Assembly: GCA_007570785.1 (NCBI GenBank)
Contig: ML660777.1
Location: forward strand, 6,717,820-6,781,819
From: Antilocapra americana
Lineage: Eukaryota > Chordata > Mammalia > Artiodactyla > Antilocapridae
DNA: 64,000 bases
Direction: 5' to 3'
Shown here piece by piece: positions 11,782 through 61,417 of the stretch. The stretch's first letter is position 1. Each line of letters opens with the position of its first letter. The translations under genes were made by a program, and so were the position numbers. The notes beneath the pieces are model-generated. The model ran no database searches and had not been told where the DNA came from. It saw only the letters and a list, made by a program, of their open reading frames with translations.

Positions 11782-12702
11782 AGACAGGTTCCAAATTGGG
11801 AATGGAATACATCAAGGCTGCATATTGTCACCCTGCCTATTTAACTTCATGCAGAGTACATCATGCCAAGCTGGATGAAGCACAAGCTAGAATGAAGATT
11901 GCTGGGAGAAATAACAATAACCTCAGATACACAGATGCCATCACCCTTATGGCAGAAAGTGAAGAACTAAAGAGCCTCTTCTTGAAAGTGAAAGAGGAGA
12001 GTGAAAAAGTTGGTTTAAAACTCAACATTCAGAAAACTAAGATCATGGCATCTGGTCCCATCACTTCATGGCAAACAGATGGGGAAATGGTAGAAACAGT
12101 GACAGACTATTTTTTGGGAGTTCCAAAATCACTGCAGATGGTGACTGCAGCCATGAAATTAAAAGATGCTTGCTCCTTGGAAGAAAAGCTATGACCAACT
12201 TAGACAGCATATTAAAAGGCAGAGACATCACTTTGCCAACAAAGGTCCATCTAATCAAAGCTATGGTTTTTCCTGTAGTCATGTATGGATGTGAGAGTTG
12301 GACTATAAAGAAAGCTGAGCACCAAAGAATTGATGCTTTTGAACCGTGGTGTTGGAGAAGACTCTTGAGAGTCCTTTGGACAGCAAGGAGATCAAACAAG
12401 TCAATCCTAAAGAAAATCAGTCCCAAATATTCATTGGAAAGACTGCTGCTGAAGCTGTAACTCCAACACTTTGGCCACCTGATGCGAAGAGTTGACTCAT
12501 TAGAAAAGACCCTGATGCTGAGCAAGACTGAAGGCAGGAGGAGAAGGGGTTGACAGAGGATGAGATGGTTGGAAGGCATCACCAATTTGATGGACATGAG
12601 TTTGAGCAAGCTCCAGTAGTTGGTAATGGATAAGGAAGCCTGCAGTCCATGGGGTCACAAAGAGTCAGATACGACTGAGTGACTAAACTGAACTGAACTG
12701 AT
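11782..12702 (+). mobile_element. BovB LINE, 3' 0.9 kb (first of a pair)
   Basis: Sense copy starting at the GTTCCAAATTGGG segment just before reverse-transcriptase motif C and ending gaactgaactga. The YADD box is altered (YTDA), and the frame shifts between 11,796-12,194 and 12,068-12,460. The ORF remnant is a pseudogene. Confidence 0.93.
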
Positions 12703-12986
12703 AGTCTCATCTTTGGAATTTCATTGCATTTTAGGTTGTGTCCTCCATGTAAATAATTCCCAAATCTGCATCTCCATTCTTCACCTCTGTCCCATTCACT
12801 GGTTCTGCATTTGTGGCTCCAGATGGACATGAGAACCTGCTCCCACAATGATACCCCTGAAACCCTTTTCTCCCCCATAAGCTTTCCATTTCAATTAAAG
12901 GCAACTCTATCCTCCTAGGAGCTGATTTCTCACTACTTCTGCTCTAGACTGCAACTTTTCTCACCTAGACTTTTTATCCCTCCCTT

Positions 12987-13915
12987 GACCTGTCTCTTGA
13001 GAAACCTGTATGCAAGTTAGGAAGCAACAGTTAGAACCGGACATGGAAAAACACACTGGTTCCAAATCGGGAAAGGAGTATGTCAAGTCTGTATAATGTC
13101 ACCCTGTTTATTTAACTTATATGCAGAGTACATCATGAGAAATGCTGGGCTGGAAGAAGCACAAGCTGGAATCAAGATTGCCGGGAGAAGTATCAATAAC
13201 CTCAGATATGCAGATGACACCACCCTTATGGCAGAAAGTGAAGAGGAACTAAAAAGCCTGTTGATGAAAGTTAAAGAGGAGAGTGAAAAAGTTGGCTTAA
13301 AGCTCAACATTCAGAAAACTAGGATCATGGCATCTGGTCCTGTCACTTCATGAGAAATAGATGGGGACTGCAGCCATGAATTTAATAGATGCTTATTCCT
13401 TGGAAGGAAAGTTATGACCAACCTAGATAGCATATTAAAAAGCAGAGACATTACTTTGCCAACAGAGGTCCATCTAGTCAAGGCTATGGTTTTTCCAGTA
13501 GTCATGTATGGATGTGAGAATTGGACTGTGAAGAAAGCTGGGTGCCAAAGAACTGATGCTTTTGAACTGTGGTGTTGGAGAAGACTCTTGAGAGTCCCAT
13601 GGAGTGCAAGGAGATCAAGCCAGTCCATCCTAAAGGAGATCAGTCCTAGGTGTTCATTGGAAGGACTGATGTTGAAGCTGAAACTCCAATACTTTGGCCA
13701 CCTCATGCGAAGAGTTGACTCATTGGAAAAGACCCTGATGCTGGGAAGGATTGGGGGCAGGAGGAGAAGAGGACAACAGAGGATGAGAGGGCTGGATCAC
13801 ATCAAAGACATGAGTTCGGGTAGACTCCGGGAGTTGGTGATGGACAAGGAGGCCTCGTGTGCTGCGATTCATGGGGTGGCAAAGAGTCAGAGAGGACTGA
13901 GTGACTAAACTAAAC
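12987..13915 (+). mobile_element. BovB LINE, 3' 0.9 kb (second of a pair)
   Basis: Sense copy starting about 85 bp further 5' in the consensus than its neighbour. It keeps RYADD in the 13,096-13,353 frame. About 60 bp between atagatgggg and actgcagcc (near 13,367) are deleted relative to other copies here, breaking the frame; the C-terminal region is open over 13,414-13,908. Confidence 0.93.
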
Positions 13916-27236: not shown

Positions 27237-27532
27237 GGGGGGTTCCTGATAGCTTAGGGAAAGAACCCGCCTGCAATGCAGGAGACCCTGGTTTGATTCC
27301 TGGCTAGGGAAGATCCCCTGGAGAAGGGATAGGCTACCCACTCCAGGTTTCTTGGTCTTCTCTTGTGGCTCAGCTGGTAACGAATCTGCCTACAATGCAG
27401 GAGACCTGGGTTCAATCCCTGGGTTGGGAACATGCCCTGGCAAAGGGAAAGGCTACCCACTCCAGTATTCTGGTCTGGAGAATCCCATGGAAAAAGTCTG
27501 GACACAACTGAGCGACTTTCACTTCACTTCAC
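27237..27532 (+). mobile_element. Bov-tA dimer with 13-bp target duplication
   Basis: Two tRNA-like heads in tandem (starting about 27,241 and 27,362) and one 3' tail. Flanks ttaggctttacag (27,224-27,236) and ttaggttttacag (27,533-27,545) differ at one base. Confidence 0.9.
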
Positions 27533-40660: not shown

Positions 40661-40761
40661 CTGAGAGAGGAGCATACACAAGATACAAAGCAAGTAAGAA
40701 CAAAAGAGAACTTGGCTTCCATTTCCAATGACAGCTCCACATTCGGCCTGAGGGAAACATC
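40661..40761 (-). CDS. ADGRG6: ADGRG6 (GPR126) coding exon 2: initiator G plus signal peptide
   Basis: Read on the minus strand, a splice acceptor (tgctttatttcatggcAG) precedes GATGTTTCCC and the exon ends CTCTCTCAG before GTAAGTAAG. The 101-nt exon supplies the G of the start codon, 33 full codons and one base of the next codon. Joined to the AT at the end of exon 1 it encodes [16 protein letters not shown], then a hydrophobic core [13 protein letters not shown] (residues 18-30) and APLS. This is a eukaryotic signal peptide with basic residues before the core. As I remember it, the human receptor begins with a nearly identical segment ([11 protein letters not shown]...) and continues VWGC, which fits the phase-1 exit here. 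ADGRG6 is a Gs-coupled adhesion GPCR of the cell surface with CUB, pentraxin, GAIN and seven-helix domains, needed for Schwann-cell myelination; only the signal peptide lies in this window. The longest ORF across this exon is in a different, non-coding frame. Confidence 0.93.
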
Positions 40762-46371: not shown

Positions 46372-49280
46372 CTACAGACATCGGAAAGGAGAAGATAAGA
46401 AAAATGATAAAACAAATGGGGTAAATATTTACAATAAGTGATTCTGTGTCAAGAGTATACAGCTGTTCTTCGTGTTATTTTTGCAACTTCTCTGGAGGTT
46501 TAAAATTATTTCTAAATAGAGTTAAATATATATGTACACTTTTACAATGAAGAATATCAGTGTTCATCTAATGATCCTCTCATCACTACTGAGTATTATT
46601 GCTTTAATCATTGCCAGTTTGATAGCAAACATAATATTTCATTTGGATTTCCTTTATTTGGATTGGCATATTGAATGATTTGTATAGCTAACTTTCCATT
46701 ATAAACATTTTCTTTTCTAATGATTTGTGATTTTTTTTAACCAATTCTATATGAAATATGTTAAGCCTTGATCAAATTTACTATAAATGTTTTCAATACA
46801 GCAATATTGAAGTTTTCCTTAAGGCATTCCAAGTAATTCCATCCTGAGTAATGTTAATAAGGGTGACACTCAGGTAGTACACTCAAGTTTTATTGCATTT
46901 TTAGTTACAATTGAAATGGCCTTTAAATGTTATAGCCCCAGTCACTTGCTGCACTTCTTCATGTCGTCCAATACAGATAATGTTTTAATGTCATCCAATT
47001 AGAAAAAAAGTGGAAAGATGCAATTTTGCCCAAGCATGCCACATACACTAAACAAAGTCTTTTTCTATTTAGTCTAAAGTCTAAATGGCCTCTAGAAACT
47101 TTTGATCATCCCATTAGAAATGTAAACCCTTGTAAGACATGGGCAGTCAGAAAAACGGTCAGATTTAAGGAAGTAGCTGTCAGTTTATTTTTAATATGTA
47201 AACTGATTCTCTTTCAGATCATTATTTCCAGAAATCAGAGTGACGTGTCCACTTGGGCAGTAAAACTACAAGCTTCTAATATTTCCCATAAGCCAAGAGA
47301 CAATAGCCTCATTCACCATTCACACTGGAAAAGCACAATGTCATGTAATTTATATAAGCCATAAATGGAACAGTAACTTCATGCAGCTTGAGACCAATTA
47401 ATGCAAGTCTTGCTAAATCTACTAAAATTTAAAATTGTGCAGTCACTACAACTCCAAAGTATATTTGTAAAGTCTCTAATTCCAGAACTTGAGTGTACTA
47501 ATACATAAACACTCTTTATCCACCGGAGTAGGCAGAAAACATATTCAAACAATTTGTGTATTTGAATCTATCAAAATTAAAAATTTAAATGATAATTACA
47601 TTTTCAATGAGATAGCAGGAATATTTACCTTGGAAAGGTTGGTATTACTTCCATATATCCAAAAACATACTGATATCTAAAAAGAATCAGATAATCTTAA
47701 ACCATTCCATATGAATTATAAACAGAAAAAAAAGAAAAAGTTGCAATCTGACAAGAAATGGAAAAACATTTTGTCAAAATAGCTCAATAAAGAAACTTCA
47801 ATCAGAGTAATAATTTTGTGATTAAATATCCATGCTTTTACTGTATAATGACATTAAGATTTTTAAAATCATATAGAATTCAAATGGACTATATAATTTC
47901 ATAACCAGGAAATTTTAACATTACTTATCAGTTTCACATCTTTTTTCATGTATAATGTAGTTTTTTTCCCCATAAGGTCCAAATCACCTAGGAAAGCTTA
48001 TAGAAAGCTAGACAAACATCTGCTATTAAAACCCTTACTATATAGTTTCAGGAAAACTGAAGCTTAAAACAAACTCACATTCATTCAAAATGTGTTGCCT
48101 GTATATAAGAATAAGTCTTATATGAAGCTGTTGGCCACATCCCAAAATAAATTCTTTCAGGTTATACCTTGCTGATCCCACTGGGTAAATGAAACTTTCA
48201 AACTCACAGGTGTGGAATGACTTCACATGCTGTTTAATAAAAATAAGTGGTTCCTTTCTAATTATACCGCTCACTACCAGGAACAGGCCTGCCAAGGGCT
48301 AGGCTTCTGGACACTCACCCTTTTTCCTATTTTGAAGATGTGTGCTGGAGGGAGCAAGGCAGAAGGTCCGAGGAATGGAAAATGACAGGCCCGAGGGGCA
48401 GATTTTTTCCCAGGTATTAAATTGAAACAGGAAATTGAAGTGGAAATAAGTAAGGCTCCAAAAGTTGGGGGAGGGGGGTGTATATCAATTTCTAGAAACT
48501 CTTGTATATTAGTCAGTGGAAGGGAGTTAAAAGTCTGTCCAGATGTCTGCCCAAGATTAAACTAAACACCAGAGGGAAAATTATATGTTACAAGAAAAAG
48601 TAACTTCTGAGTTGGCCACAAAAATAAGCTGGGTCCTTTCGAGAACAGCCTTCCTTTTTCCATTTTGGAAGGCTAAGCTAAGCGGTGCTGGGGGCCCTTC
48701 AGCGGGGTCGCCGCGAGGCACCTCGCCACTTGGAAGGACAAGTTCATAGAAACAAAACCCATCAGGTTTCTCTTAGCGTTTCATCGCCCTACACCCCCCA
48801 CTCCTACTTCTACACAAGCCCCCTCAGAGATCCTATCACGTAAAATGACATCTTCTTTAATGACTTTTTAATCTGTAAAAGTACACCGAGAACCTTTACT
48901 GCGCGCTTAAAAAAAAAAAGAAAAAATCATTCAAACAACCCAAAGATCCAAGAATAACTTCTACAGTCAAGGGTGACAATGTGTAAAGTCAACATTCTCT
49001 CGGCATACTAGTACCTTCCAAGCCCCCAGGTGGTGATCCAGGAGAGCGCCTTCTTGGCAGGGCCCGGCCCCTGGATGGAGCGACCGCGCTTGTGACTTCT
49101 TGTGGCATTTGAATCGACAACGTTTTCCCCATTCTTGAAGCCCTGCCCTTTTTATTATGCTTTACGCCGCCCAAACGTGAGGTTTACCTCTGGCTGGGGG
49201 GGGGGGGGGGGGCAGCCAGCCGCACACACATGTCACAGCTCCGCCTGGCAGAACAGAGCTCACTCATTGACTCAAGGGGC
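46372..49280. other. 2.9-kb repeat-poor part of intron 1 next to the CpG island
   Basis: No transposable element recognised. GC content rises from about 48,650 (gcggggtcgccgcgaggcac near 48,700) toward the promoter. Confidence 0.5.
49196..49212 (+). repeat. Run of 17 G (C17 on the gene strand)
   Basis: An uninterrupted G17 homopolymer about 235 nt inside intron 1. In the ADGRG6 pre-mRNA it is a C run; the plus strand can fold as a G-quadruplex. Such runs are prone to length error in sequencing. Confidence 0.95.
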
Positions 49281-49446
49281 GAAGTGAAGACAAACCGGTT
49301 TATTCTGTCCGTGCTCAGTGCGGCTGAAGTCTTTACGAAGCCGTGGGGTCGGGGACCGGGAGTTAGGGGGCGGGCAGGGGAAGGGGGGCACAGGTAAAGG
49401 TGTGAAGGAATTCTGAGCTGAAAGGGGTGGGGGGGGTGGTACTTAC

Positions 49447-49680
49447 ATGTTGGCATCACTGCGCTGGGGTCCCCAGGGGCCGCGCGGTCATGCTCCACCA
49501 CCTTCACCAGGCCCCGCGGCTCCGAGTTCCCCCGATGAAGCCCCCACCCGGGCCGAGCTCGGTGGCCGGACCCTCCTTCACGCTCTTTCTGGAGAGTTCA
49601 TCGGGGTTTCCCGGGTAGCTCCGGGGTGGCGCAAGGTGGAAGGTCGGCGCCGCGGAGTTCAAGTGCGGATCGCGGCGGCC
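49447..49680 (-). CDS. ADGRG6: ADGRG6 exon 1: 5' UTR ending in the first two bases of the start codon (5' limit uncertain)
   Basis: On the minus strand the sequence ATGCCAACAT is followed by GTAAGT, a perfect donor, after base 49,447. Only the last two bases (49,448-49,447, AT) are coding; with the G at 40,761 they form the initiator ATG. Its context is CCAACATGA, with A at -3. The rest is 5' UTR inside a CpG island. It carries short upstream ORFs: ATG at 49,601 to TGA at 49,578 (7 codons), ATG at 49,491 to TGA at 49,456 (11 codons), and ATG at 49,456, whose TGA is completed across the splice junction. The transcription start cannot be read from sequence. I placed the 5' limit at the GC-box cluster 49,682-49,698 as a guess; no TATA box is apparent. 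The donor, the start codon and the pairing with exon 2 are well supported, the 5' end is not. Confidence 0.82.
49456..49491 (-). other. Upstream ORF of 11 codons in ADGRG6 exon 1
   Basis: ATG at 49,491-49,489 has A at -3 and A at +4 (AGCATGA), a reasonable initiation context. It reads MTARPLGTPAQ and stops at TGA 49,458-49,456. The last A of that stop is the first base of a second upstream ATG (TGATG), whose own stop overlaps the main start. Frame and positions are read directly from the sequence; use by ribosomes is inference. Confidence 0.6.
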
Positions 49681-60084: not shown

Positions 60085-60290
60085 CGCTATTCAGTATTTT
60101 GGTCATCTGATACAAACAGCCGATTCATTGGAAAAGTCCCTGATGCTGGGAAAGATTGAGGGGAGAAGGATAAGAGGGCATCAGAGGATGAGATGGTTGG
60201 ATGGCATCACTGATGCAATAGGTATGAACTTGGGCAAACTTCAGGTCACAAAGAGTTGGACTCAACTGAGTACCTGAACAACAATAACAA
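60085..60290 (+). mobile_element. BovB 3' fragment
   Basis: Sense: ggaaaagtccctgatgctgg, gatgagatggttggatggca. About 40 bp before the tail (ggagttggtgatgg region) is deleted. Confidence 0.88.
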
Positions 60291-60352
60291 GATAACCACA
60301 TTCTTTAATATGAAAGATGTCACTTAATTTAGAACTATGCATTGATACTCTT

Positions 60353-61417
60353 CGGTGATTGAAGACTTTTCAGTTTTTGACTGTGTAGATCACAACAAAC
60401 TGTGGAAAATTCTTAAAGAGATGGGAATACCATACCACCTGACCTGCCTCCTGAGAAATCTGTATGCAAGTCAAGAAGCAACAGTTAGAAACGGAAATGG
60501 AACAACAGACTGGTTCCAAATTGGGAAATTGAGCACATCAGGCTGTATAATGTCACCCTGCTTATTTAACTTATATACGGAGTGCATCATGTGAAATGCC
60601 AGGCTGGATGGAGCACAAGCTGAAATCAAGATTGCTGGGAGAAATATCAATAACCTCAGATACGCAGATGACACCACCCTTATGGCAGAAAGTGAAGAGG
60701 AGAGCCTCTTGATGAAAGTGAAAGAGGAGAGTGAAAAAGCTGGTTTAAAACTCAATATTCAAAAAAAAGAAGATCATGGCATCTGGTCCCATCATTCCAT
60801 GGCAAATAGATGGAAATAGTGGCAGACTTCATTTTTCTAGGCTCCAAACTCACTGCAAATAGTGACTGTAGCCATAGAATTAAAAAAAACTTGCTCCTTG
60901 GAAGAAAAGTTATGACCAACCTAGACAGCATATTAAAATCAGAGACATTACTTTGCTGACAAAGATGCATCTAGTCAAAGCTATGGTTTTTCCATGAATG
61001 GATATGAGAGTTGGACTATAAAGAAAGCTGAGCTCTGAAGCACTGATGCTTTTGAACTGTGATGTTAGAGAAGACTCTTGAGAGTCTCTTGGACTGCAAG
61101 GAGATCCAAACAGTCAATCCTCAAGGAAATCAGCCCTGAATATTCGTTGGAAGGACTGATGCTAAAGCTGAAACTCCAATACTTTAGTCACCTGATGCGA
61201 AGAACTGACTCATTGGAAAAGACCCTGATTCTGGGAAAGATAGAAGGCAGGAGGAGAAGGGGATGACAGAGGATGAGATGGTTGGATGAATCACCGATTC
61301 AATGAACATGAGTTTGAACAAGCTCCAGGAGTTGATGATGGACAGGGAAGCCTGGTGTGCTACAGTTCTTGGGGTCACAAAGAGTCGGACACAACTGAGT
61401 GACTGAACTGAACTGAT
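60353..61417 (+). mobile_element. BovB LINE 3' 1.07 kb
   Basis: Sense copy from just before reverse-transcriptase motif A (FDCVDH-type, 60,355-60,594) through RYADD near 60,660 to the gaactgaactga end. Stops, small deletions and frameshifts break the ORF; the C-terminal part survives at 61,078-61,266. Confidence 0.93.

Follow-up and report, generated by a model that had tools for sequence, protein, structure and literature searches.

The question raised by this locus is what a chain of overlapping stop and start codons ahead of the receptor gene ADGRG6 (GPR126) does to translation of the receptor, if it does anything. The chain lies on the minus strand of a 64,000-nt stretch of Antilocapra americana DNA (contig ML660777.1, positions 6,717,820 to 6,781,819), referred to here as the window. 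The original prediction was that one short upstream reading frame (uORF) passes ribosomes to a second, and the second to the receptor start, by termination-reinitiation, and that this could throttle receptor synthesis. As a description of the DNA it is sound: the 11-codon uORF, its TGATG link to an MPT uORF, and the split TGA of the latter over the main start lie exactly at the bases named, and a further 7-codon uORF at 49,578-49,601 (MNSPERA) is borne out as well (Table 1).

The assignment of the gene and its exons also holds. Exon 2 matches the human ADGRG6 protein at 15 of 17 residues (E 2e-5), and its peptide resembles the N-termini of the listed ADGRG6 orthologues. Judged by eye, it includes a hydrophobic stretch that resembles a signal peptide. 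With the N-terminal part of the human protein as query, no other convincing exon was found in the window, and a search of the exon 2 peptide against the PDB returned nothing meaningful (best E 1.5). We infer the exon 1-2 junction from the reading frame together with the signals for splicing; the intron ends in GGCAG before 40,761. The surroundings of exon 1 (50,400 to 49,401) are rich in CpG, with a GC content of 0.66-0.80 and a CpG observed/expected ratio of 0.61-1.07.

Table 1. Coordinates of the features of the ADGRG6 leader and first coding exon in the window.
Feature	Position	Strand	Details
uORF0	49601..49578	minus	ATG at 49,601, TGA at 49,580-49,578; MNSPERA, 7 codons plus TGA; last sense codon GCG
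uORF1	49491..49456	minus	ATG at 49,491; MTARPLGTPAQ, 11 codons; TGA at 49,458-49,456
uORF2, exon 1 part	49456..49447	minus	MPT, 3 codons; ATG at 49,456-49,454
uORF2 stop	T49,447 + G40,761 + A40,760	minus	TGA straddling the intron; GA part (40760..40761) in exon 2
M1, receptor start	A49,448 T49,447 + G40,761	minus	ATG split by the intron; context GCCAACATGA
M2, codon 2	40760..40758	minus	second in-frame ATG; first in-frame ATG common to the alternative first exons
Exon 1a donor	49446..49441	minus	GTAAGT, canonical; directly after 49,447
Possible +4 donor	49442..49437	minus	GTACCA; CATGTAA|GTACC; inferred from squirrel P0023
Exon 1 landmarks	49650..49430		uORF1 ATG, TGATG, and AT before GCCAACATG
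Exon 1b, part	49196..49015	minus	putative alternative first exon, indicated by isoforms of dog and camel; ends at 49,015 before the donor GGAAG|GTACTA
Exon 2	40761..40661	minus	start of receptor N-terminus; acceptor AG 40,763-40,762; donor GTAAGT after 40,661

Other features of the window belong to its repeat content. Strings that represent Bov-tA-like and CHR-like SINEs match it, the best of them at 27 of 29 bases, which marks the DNA as that of a ruminant-type artiodactyl. Among 12 other repeat strings, 10 had no match in the window of at least 70%, the remaining two being a MIR string (24/33) and a 'Ther/Afro' string (18/25), with one match each. A tRNA-Cys call at 27,243-27,311 (ARAGORN; 34.6 bits, the single Rfam tRNA match) coincides in part with a repeat family (27,257-27,346 and others) to which Bov-tA-like matches belong, and is probably a tRNA-derived SINE rather than a tRNA gene. 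Dispersed repeats of up to 300 nt at 12,136-13,834 and 60,098-61,324, the listed copies of which are 62-91% identical, are presumably ruminant LINE fragments such as BovB.

The two links of the chain differ in size. At the first, a single base (A49,456) belongs both to the uORF1 stop and to the uORF2 start, giving TGATG at 49,458-49,454. At the second, the uORF2 stop has TG in common with M1, a 2-base overlap, and shares its A with M2, such that UGAUG is present twice in the leader. The overlaps measure 1 and 2 nt, and the spacing of "0-1 base" between each stop and the next start does not describe them. The joined exons carry three AUG-initiated uORFs, provided that the transcript starts 5' of them; the uORFs may lie partly outside the mRNA. 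The most distal, uORF0, is in frame with the receptor, yet is closed by its own TGA.

How readily such an arrangement arises by chance was gauged with leaders of four assumed lengths (452, 252, 172 and 52 nt), each shuffled 20,000 times with its dinucleotide composition preserved and exon 2 held fixed. In that order of lengths, the exact two-link chain appeared in 0.33, 0.94, 0.75 and 0.79% of shuffles, and a chain under looser rules in 1.3, 3.6, 3.1 and 2.4%. The number of uORFs was at least as high as observed (three, three, three and two) in 12, 18, 11 and 20%. A uORF closed by the TGA of the main ATGA was found in 22, 38, 36 and 49%; this link is almost free, because the receptor starts with ATGATG, which holds a TGA in another frame. 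Measured against shuffles, the full chain is uncommon for a single leader and is not remarkable by itself across ~20,000 genes.

The ATGATG start is widespread among homologues. The set consists of 138 records, the union of the matches listed for three queries: the human protein (965 matches among 7991 scored candidates, best 120 listed), a camel N-terminus (best 120 of 174 matches listed) and a squirrel N-terminus (3 matches). These are cluster representatives, often with several isoforms per species, and are not independent. Within this set, 81 records begin with MM, 24 with M2 only, six with MPT and 27 otherwise. In records from guinea pig, Damaraland and naked mole-rats (P0005, P0070, P0076, P0008), the protein begins at the third in-frame ATG (MWSCHWKWK) or M2 is replaced by S. 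Some hystricomorph rodents therefore seem not to conserve M1/M2; M2 is retained in Octodon P0071. A 22-nt pattern from exon 1 had no match in two contig collections (viral_contigs and genome_contigs), which was expected because they contain no mammals.

What ribosomes would do on this leader depends on the contexts of its start codons. At positions -3/+4, uORF1 has A/A, uORF2 G/C, M1 A/A and M2 A/T, such that both proximal upstream AUGs have a purine at -3; uORF0 (C/A) is weak, and the third in-frame ATG has C/T. Against the Kozak consensus, M1 is the best fit among these ATGs. Its context GCCAAC is at the same time the body of uORF2 (AT-GCCAAC-ATG). The geometry of the overlaps is likely to be largely a side effect of the ATGATG with which the receptor starts and of the position of uORF2 within the Kozak context of M1.

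The reading that we prefer, with a probability of about 0.5, is that the chain belongs to the leader of a single first-exon isoform of ADGRG6 (exon 1a), in which three short AUG uORFs are mildly repressive and are passed by leaky scanning. Scanning ribosomes would in part initiate at uORF1 and uORF2 and then be lost, and the remainder would leak past both to M1 or M2. Receptor output from exon 1a would be lowered in this way and may rise under stress; reinitiation would contribute little, and transcripts from other first exons would escape uORF control and start at M2. A uORF throttle on receptor translation is thus plausible from the sequence and reasonable, though unproven. This much of the regulatory role in the original prediction can be retained, given the purine at -3 of both proximal upstream AUGs and a hypoxia result for human GPR126; the proposed route of termination-reinitiation is not supported.

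The hypoxia result comes from a polysome study of HCT116 cells, in which human GPR126 was upregulated translationally and not transcriptionally (PMC4831676). The passages of that paper on GPR126 do not treat its leader. Phosphorylation of eIF2alpha rose only slightly and 4E-BP1 was dephosphorylated, PERK and mTOR both being affected, and HSPA5 and VCAN were validated alongside GPR126 (PMC4831676). The result fits uORF bypass, to which it lends weak and confounded support, as the rise in GPR126 may instead reflect mTOR effects or the sparing of ER-targeted mRNAs. The products of HSPA5 and VCAN are also routed through the ER. Within the portions of the open-licence PMC literature covered, no paper was found that describes uORFs of ADGRG6/GPR126 or gives profiling or reporter data on the leader, and the exon 1 strings appeared in no paper on ADGRG6, as judged by title; in the part of PMC7430845 covered, GPR126 is present in the references only.

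Alternative first exons limit the reach of the chain. N-terminal extensions of dog (Canis lupus P0045 and P0050) and camel (P0057) isoforms match the window at 49,196-49,014 and 49,132-49,016 (E 1e-15, 4e-16 and 1e-14), which puts a putative exon 1b some 430 nt 3' of the exon 1a donor, still within the CpG-rich region. In another dog isoform (P0020), the reading frame enters exon 2 from adjoining intron sequence on its upstream side (40,784; E 3e-6). For the extensions of P0021, P0036, P0084, P0117 and P0119, no convincing location was found in the window. As read from the window, exon 1b is interrupted by stops in the dog frame, and its camel frame fails to continue into that of the receptor, such that M2 would be the start for exon 1b transcripts. 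Surveys report eight 5'-start exons for human ADGRG6 (PMC11039983) and 12 for mouse (PMC6667449). Since other first exons exist and 24 of the 138 listed records start at M2, the chain governs exon 1a transcripts only. A transcription start downstream of 49,491, which the original prediction had named as evidence against itself, is in part what was found: other mammals have annotated first exons 3' of the chain.

The bypass afforded by these first exons is also one argument for the strongest of the competing explanations, in which the uORFs are passengers with no regulatory role, the conserved stretch being kept for splicing and for the M1 context, and in which transcripts may start so close by that the upstream AUGs have no bearing. 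The number of uORFs is ordinary by comparison with shuffles (about 10-20%), and GCCAAC-ATG together with the donor sequence explains why most of the MPT frame is conserved. On the other side, some ribosomes are usually lost to upstream AUGs of a capped leader that carry a purine at -3, and human GPR126 is translationally regulated (PMC4831676). On balance we consider that the uORFs are possibly mere passengers, and that this is a less probable account than leaky scanning.

The relay at the heart of the original prediction is unlikely. In it, ribosomes would terminate uORF1 at UGAUG, begin anew on uORF2, terminate a second time at (A)UGAUG and begin again at M1 or M2. Its appeal lies in the fact that both junctions overlap, that UGAUG occurs twice, that the exact chain is met in just 0.3-0.9% of shuffles, and that UGAUG stop-starts are found in SLAMF1 and GAD mRNAs (PMC5972666), although the same source, in the passages concerned, leaves the use of this route in SLAMF1 itself unsettled. 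Stop-start reinitiation in caliciviruses and influenza B relies on an upstream UGGGA element, the core of the TURBS, and in these viruses the first ORF must be long and both UGGGA and structure must lie upstream (PMC5972666). The ADGRG6 leader shares with them its overlapping or adjacent stops and starts (TGATG, and the TGA over M1 and next to M2), but none of the other elements was found in it. The UGGGA core is absent from 49,620-49,447, in which TGGG occurs at 49,546 and 49,475, and a minimum-energy test detected no stable structure in three leader segments (z 0.50, 0.95 and 0.32 versus shuffles). A TURBS element was rejected for want of the UGGGA core. The missing UGGGA is not proof against a relay, because certain viral relays also do without it (PMC5972666). 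Just 7 nt separate the uORF1 stop from M1, and reinitiation after short uORFs requires distance in which to reload initiator tRNA (PMC5972666). There is also indirect evidence from a bat record, P0117 (KCNAN-MMF), best read as ..TGCAATGCCAACATGATG, with no TGA before the uORF2 start, which suggests that the first overlap is absent there. With no UGGGA, no folding in excess of shuffles and 7 nt of room, leaky scanning is favoured over the relay.

Comparison with known systems places the leader in the same light. The leader of the long isoform of SLAMF1 (CD150) likewise has several uORFs, the last of which has a stop overlapping the main start of a cell-surface receptor (UGAUG); it differs in that this last uORF has 29 codons and a UGGGA-related sequence (PMC5972666, PMC10976276), whereas the ADGRG6 chain has uORFs of 3 and 11 codons, two overlaps, a start split by an intron and no UGGGA. 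The alternative-promoter leader of TP53BP1 is similar in that one and the same coding frame does or does not have a uORF ahead of it, depending on which first exon is used. For TP53BP1, measurements were made both of expression and of reinitiation at an internal ORF (PMC10193022), while the ADGRG6 case is read here from sequence. A possible likeness to delayed reinitiation of the ATF4/GCN4 type is that a first short uORF, uORF0, stands 86 nt before a putatively inhibitory one (PMC7494916, PMC5972666), although its start context is weak and stress dependence of the ADGRG6 leader is hypothetical. uORF0 ends in GCG-TGA (49,578-49,601), and a last codon GCG is reported to make reinitiation dependent on DENR-MCTS1 (PMC7494916). 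Despite the weak context, uORF0 and uORF1 could form an ATF4-like arrangement.

A further explanation, which was absent from the original prediction and is the most interesting lead, concerns uORF2 as an alternative receptor N-terminus. The six MPT records among the 138 listed (P0023, P0054, P0056, P0065, P0068 and P0073; four species) read MPT plus two residues and then M2. The squirrel record P0023 has MPTCK-MF (MPTCKMFHSS), and the other five, from Camelus ferus, C. dromedarius and Vicugna pacos, have MPTYR-MF; the three proteins matched by the squirrel N-terminus query included no new MPT case. Going by these annotated isoforms, uORF2 appears to be present in a squirrel and in camelids as well as in the window. 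Shifts of 4 nt in splicing appear to fuse uORF2 to the receptor in some mammals. The squirrel form fits use of a +4 donor, which in the window would yield in-frame MPTCKMFPSG, with M1 becoming ATG TAA. The five camelid records fit the retention of ACAG before exon 2, camel exon 1b isoforms carry a compatible insertion (GGLE-D-R-MF), and dromedary has both MMF and MPTYR records (P0053, P0054). The junction would then act as a switch, in which the main splice leaves MPT as a uORF and a 4-nt donor or acceptor shift joins it to M2. We regard this as improbable, since it draws on database annotations and involves six of 138 listed records in four species; in the window, moreover, the +4 donor GTACCA is off consensus while GTAAGT meets it, and there is no AG 4 nt upstream of the acceptor. 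A fuller version, in which the junction is a splice-tuned translational switch whose 4-nt shifts turn a repressive MPT uORF within a double UGAUG chain into receptor sequence and change both receptor output and first residues, with donor-side and acceptor-side solutions in different mammal lineages, is more doubtful still.

Schwann-cell myelination and placental development both require ADGRG6. If its leader limits synthesis of the receptor and some first exons escape that leader, this would bear on when and where the receptor is made, and any construct or knock-out directed solely at exon 1a would pass over those transcripts in which M2 is the start. The ADGRG6 layout is a variation on common uORF control, real and mostly ordinary, in which short uORFs probably dampen production of the receptor in the ordinary way.
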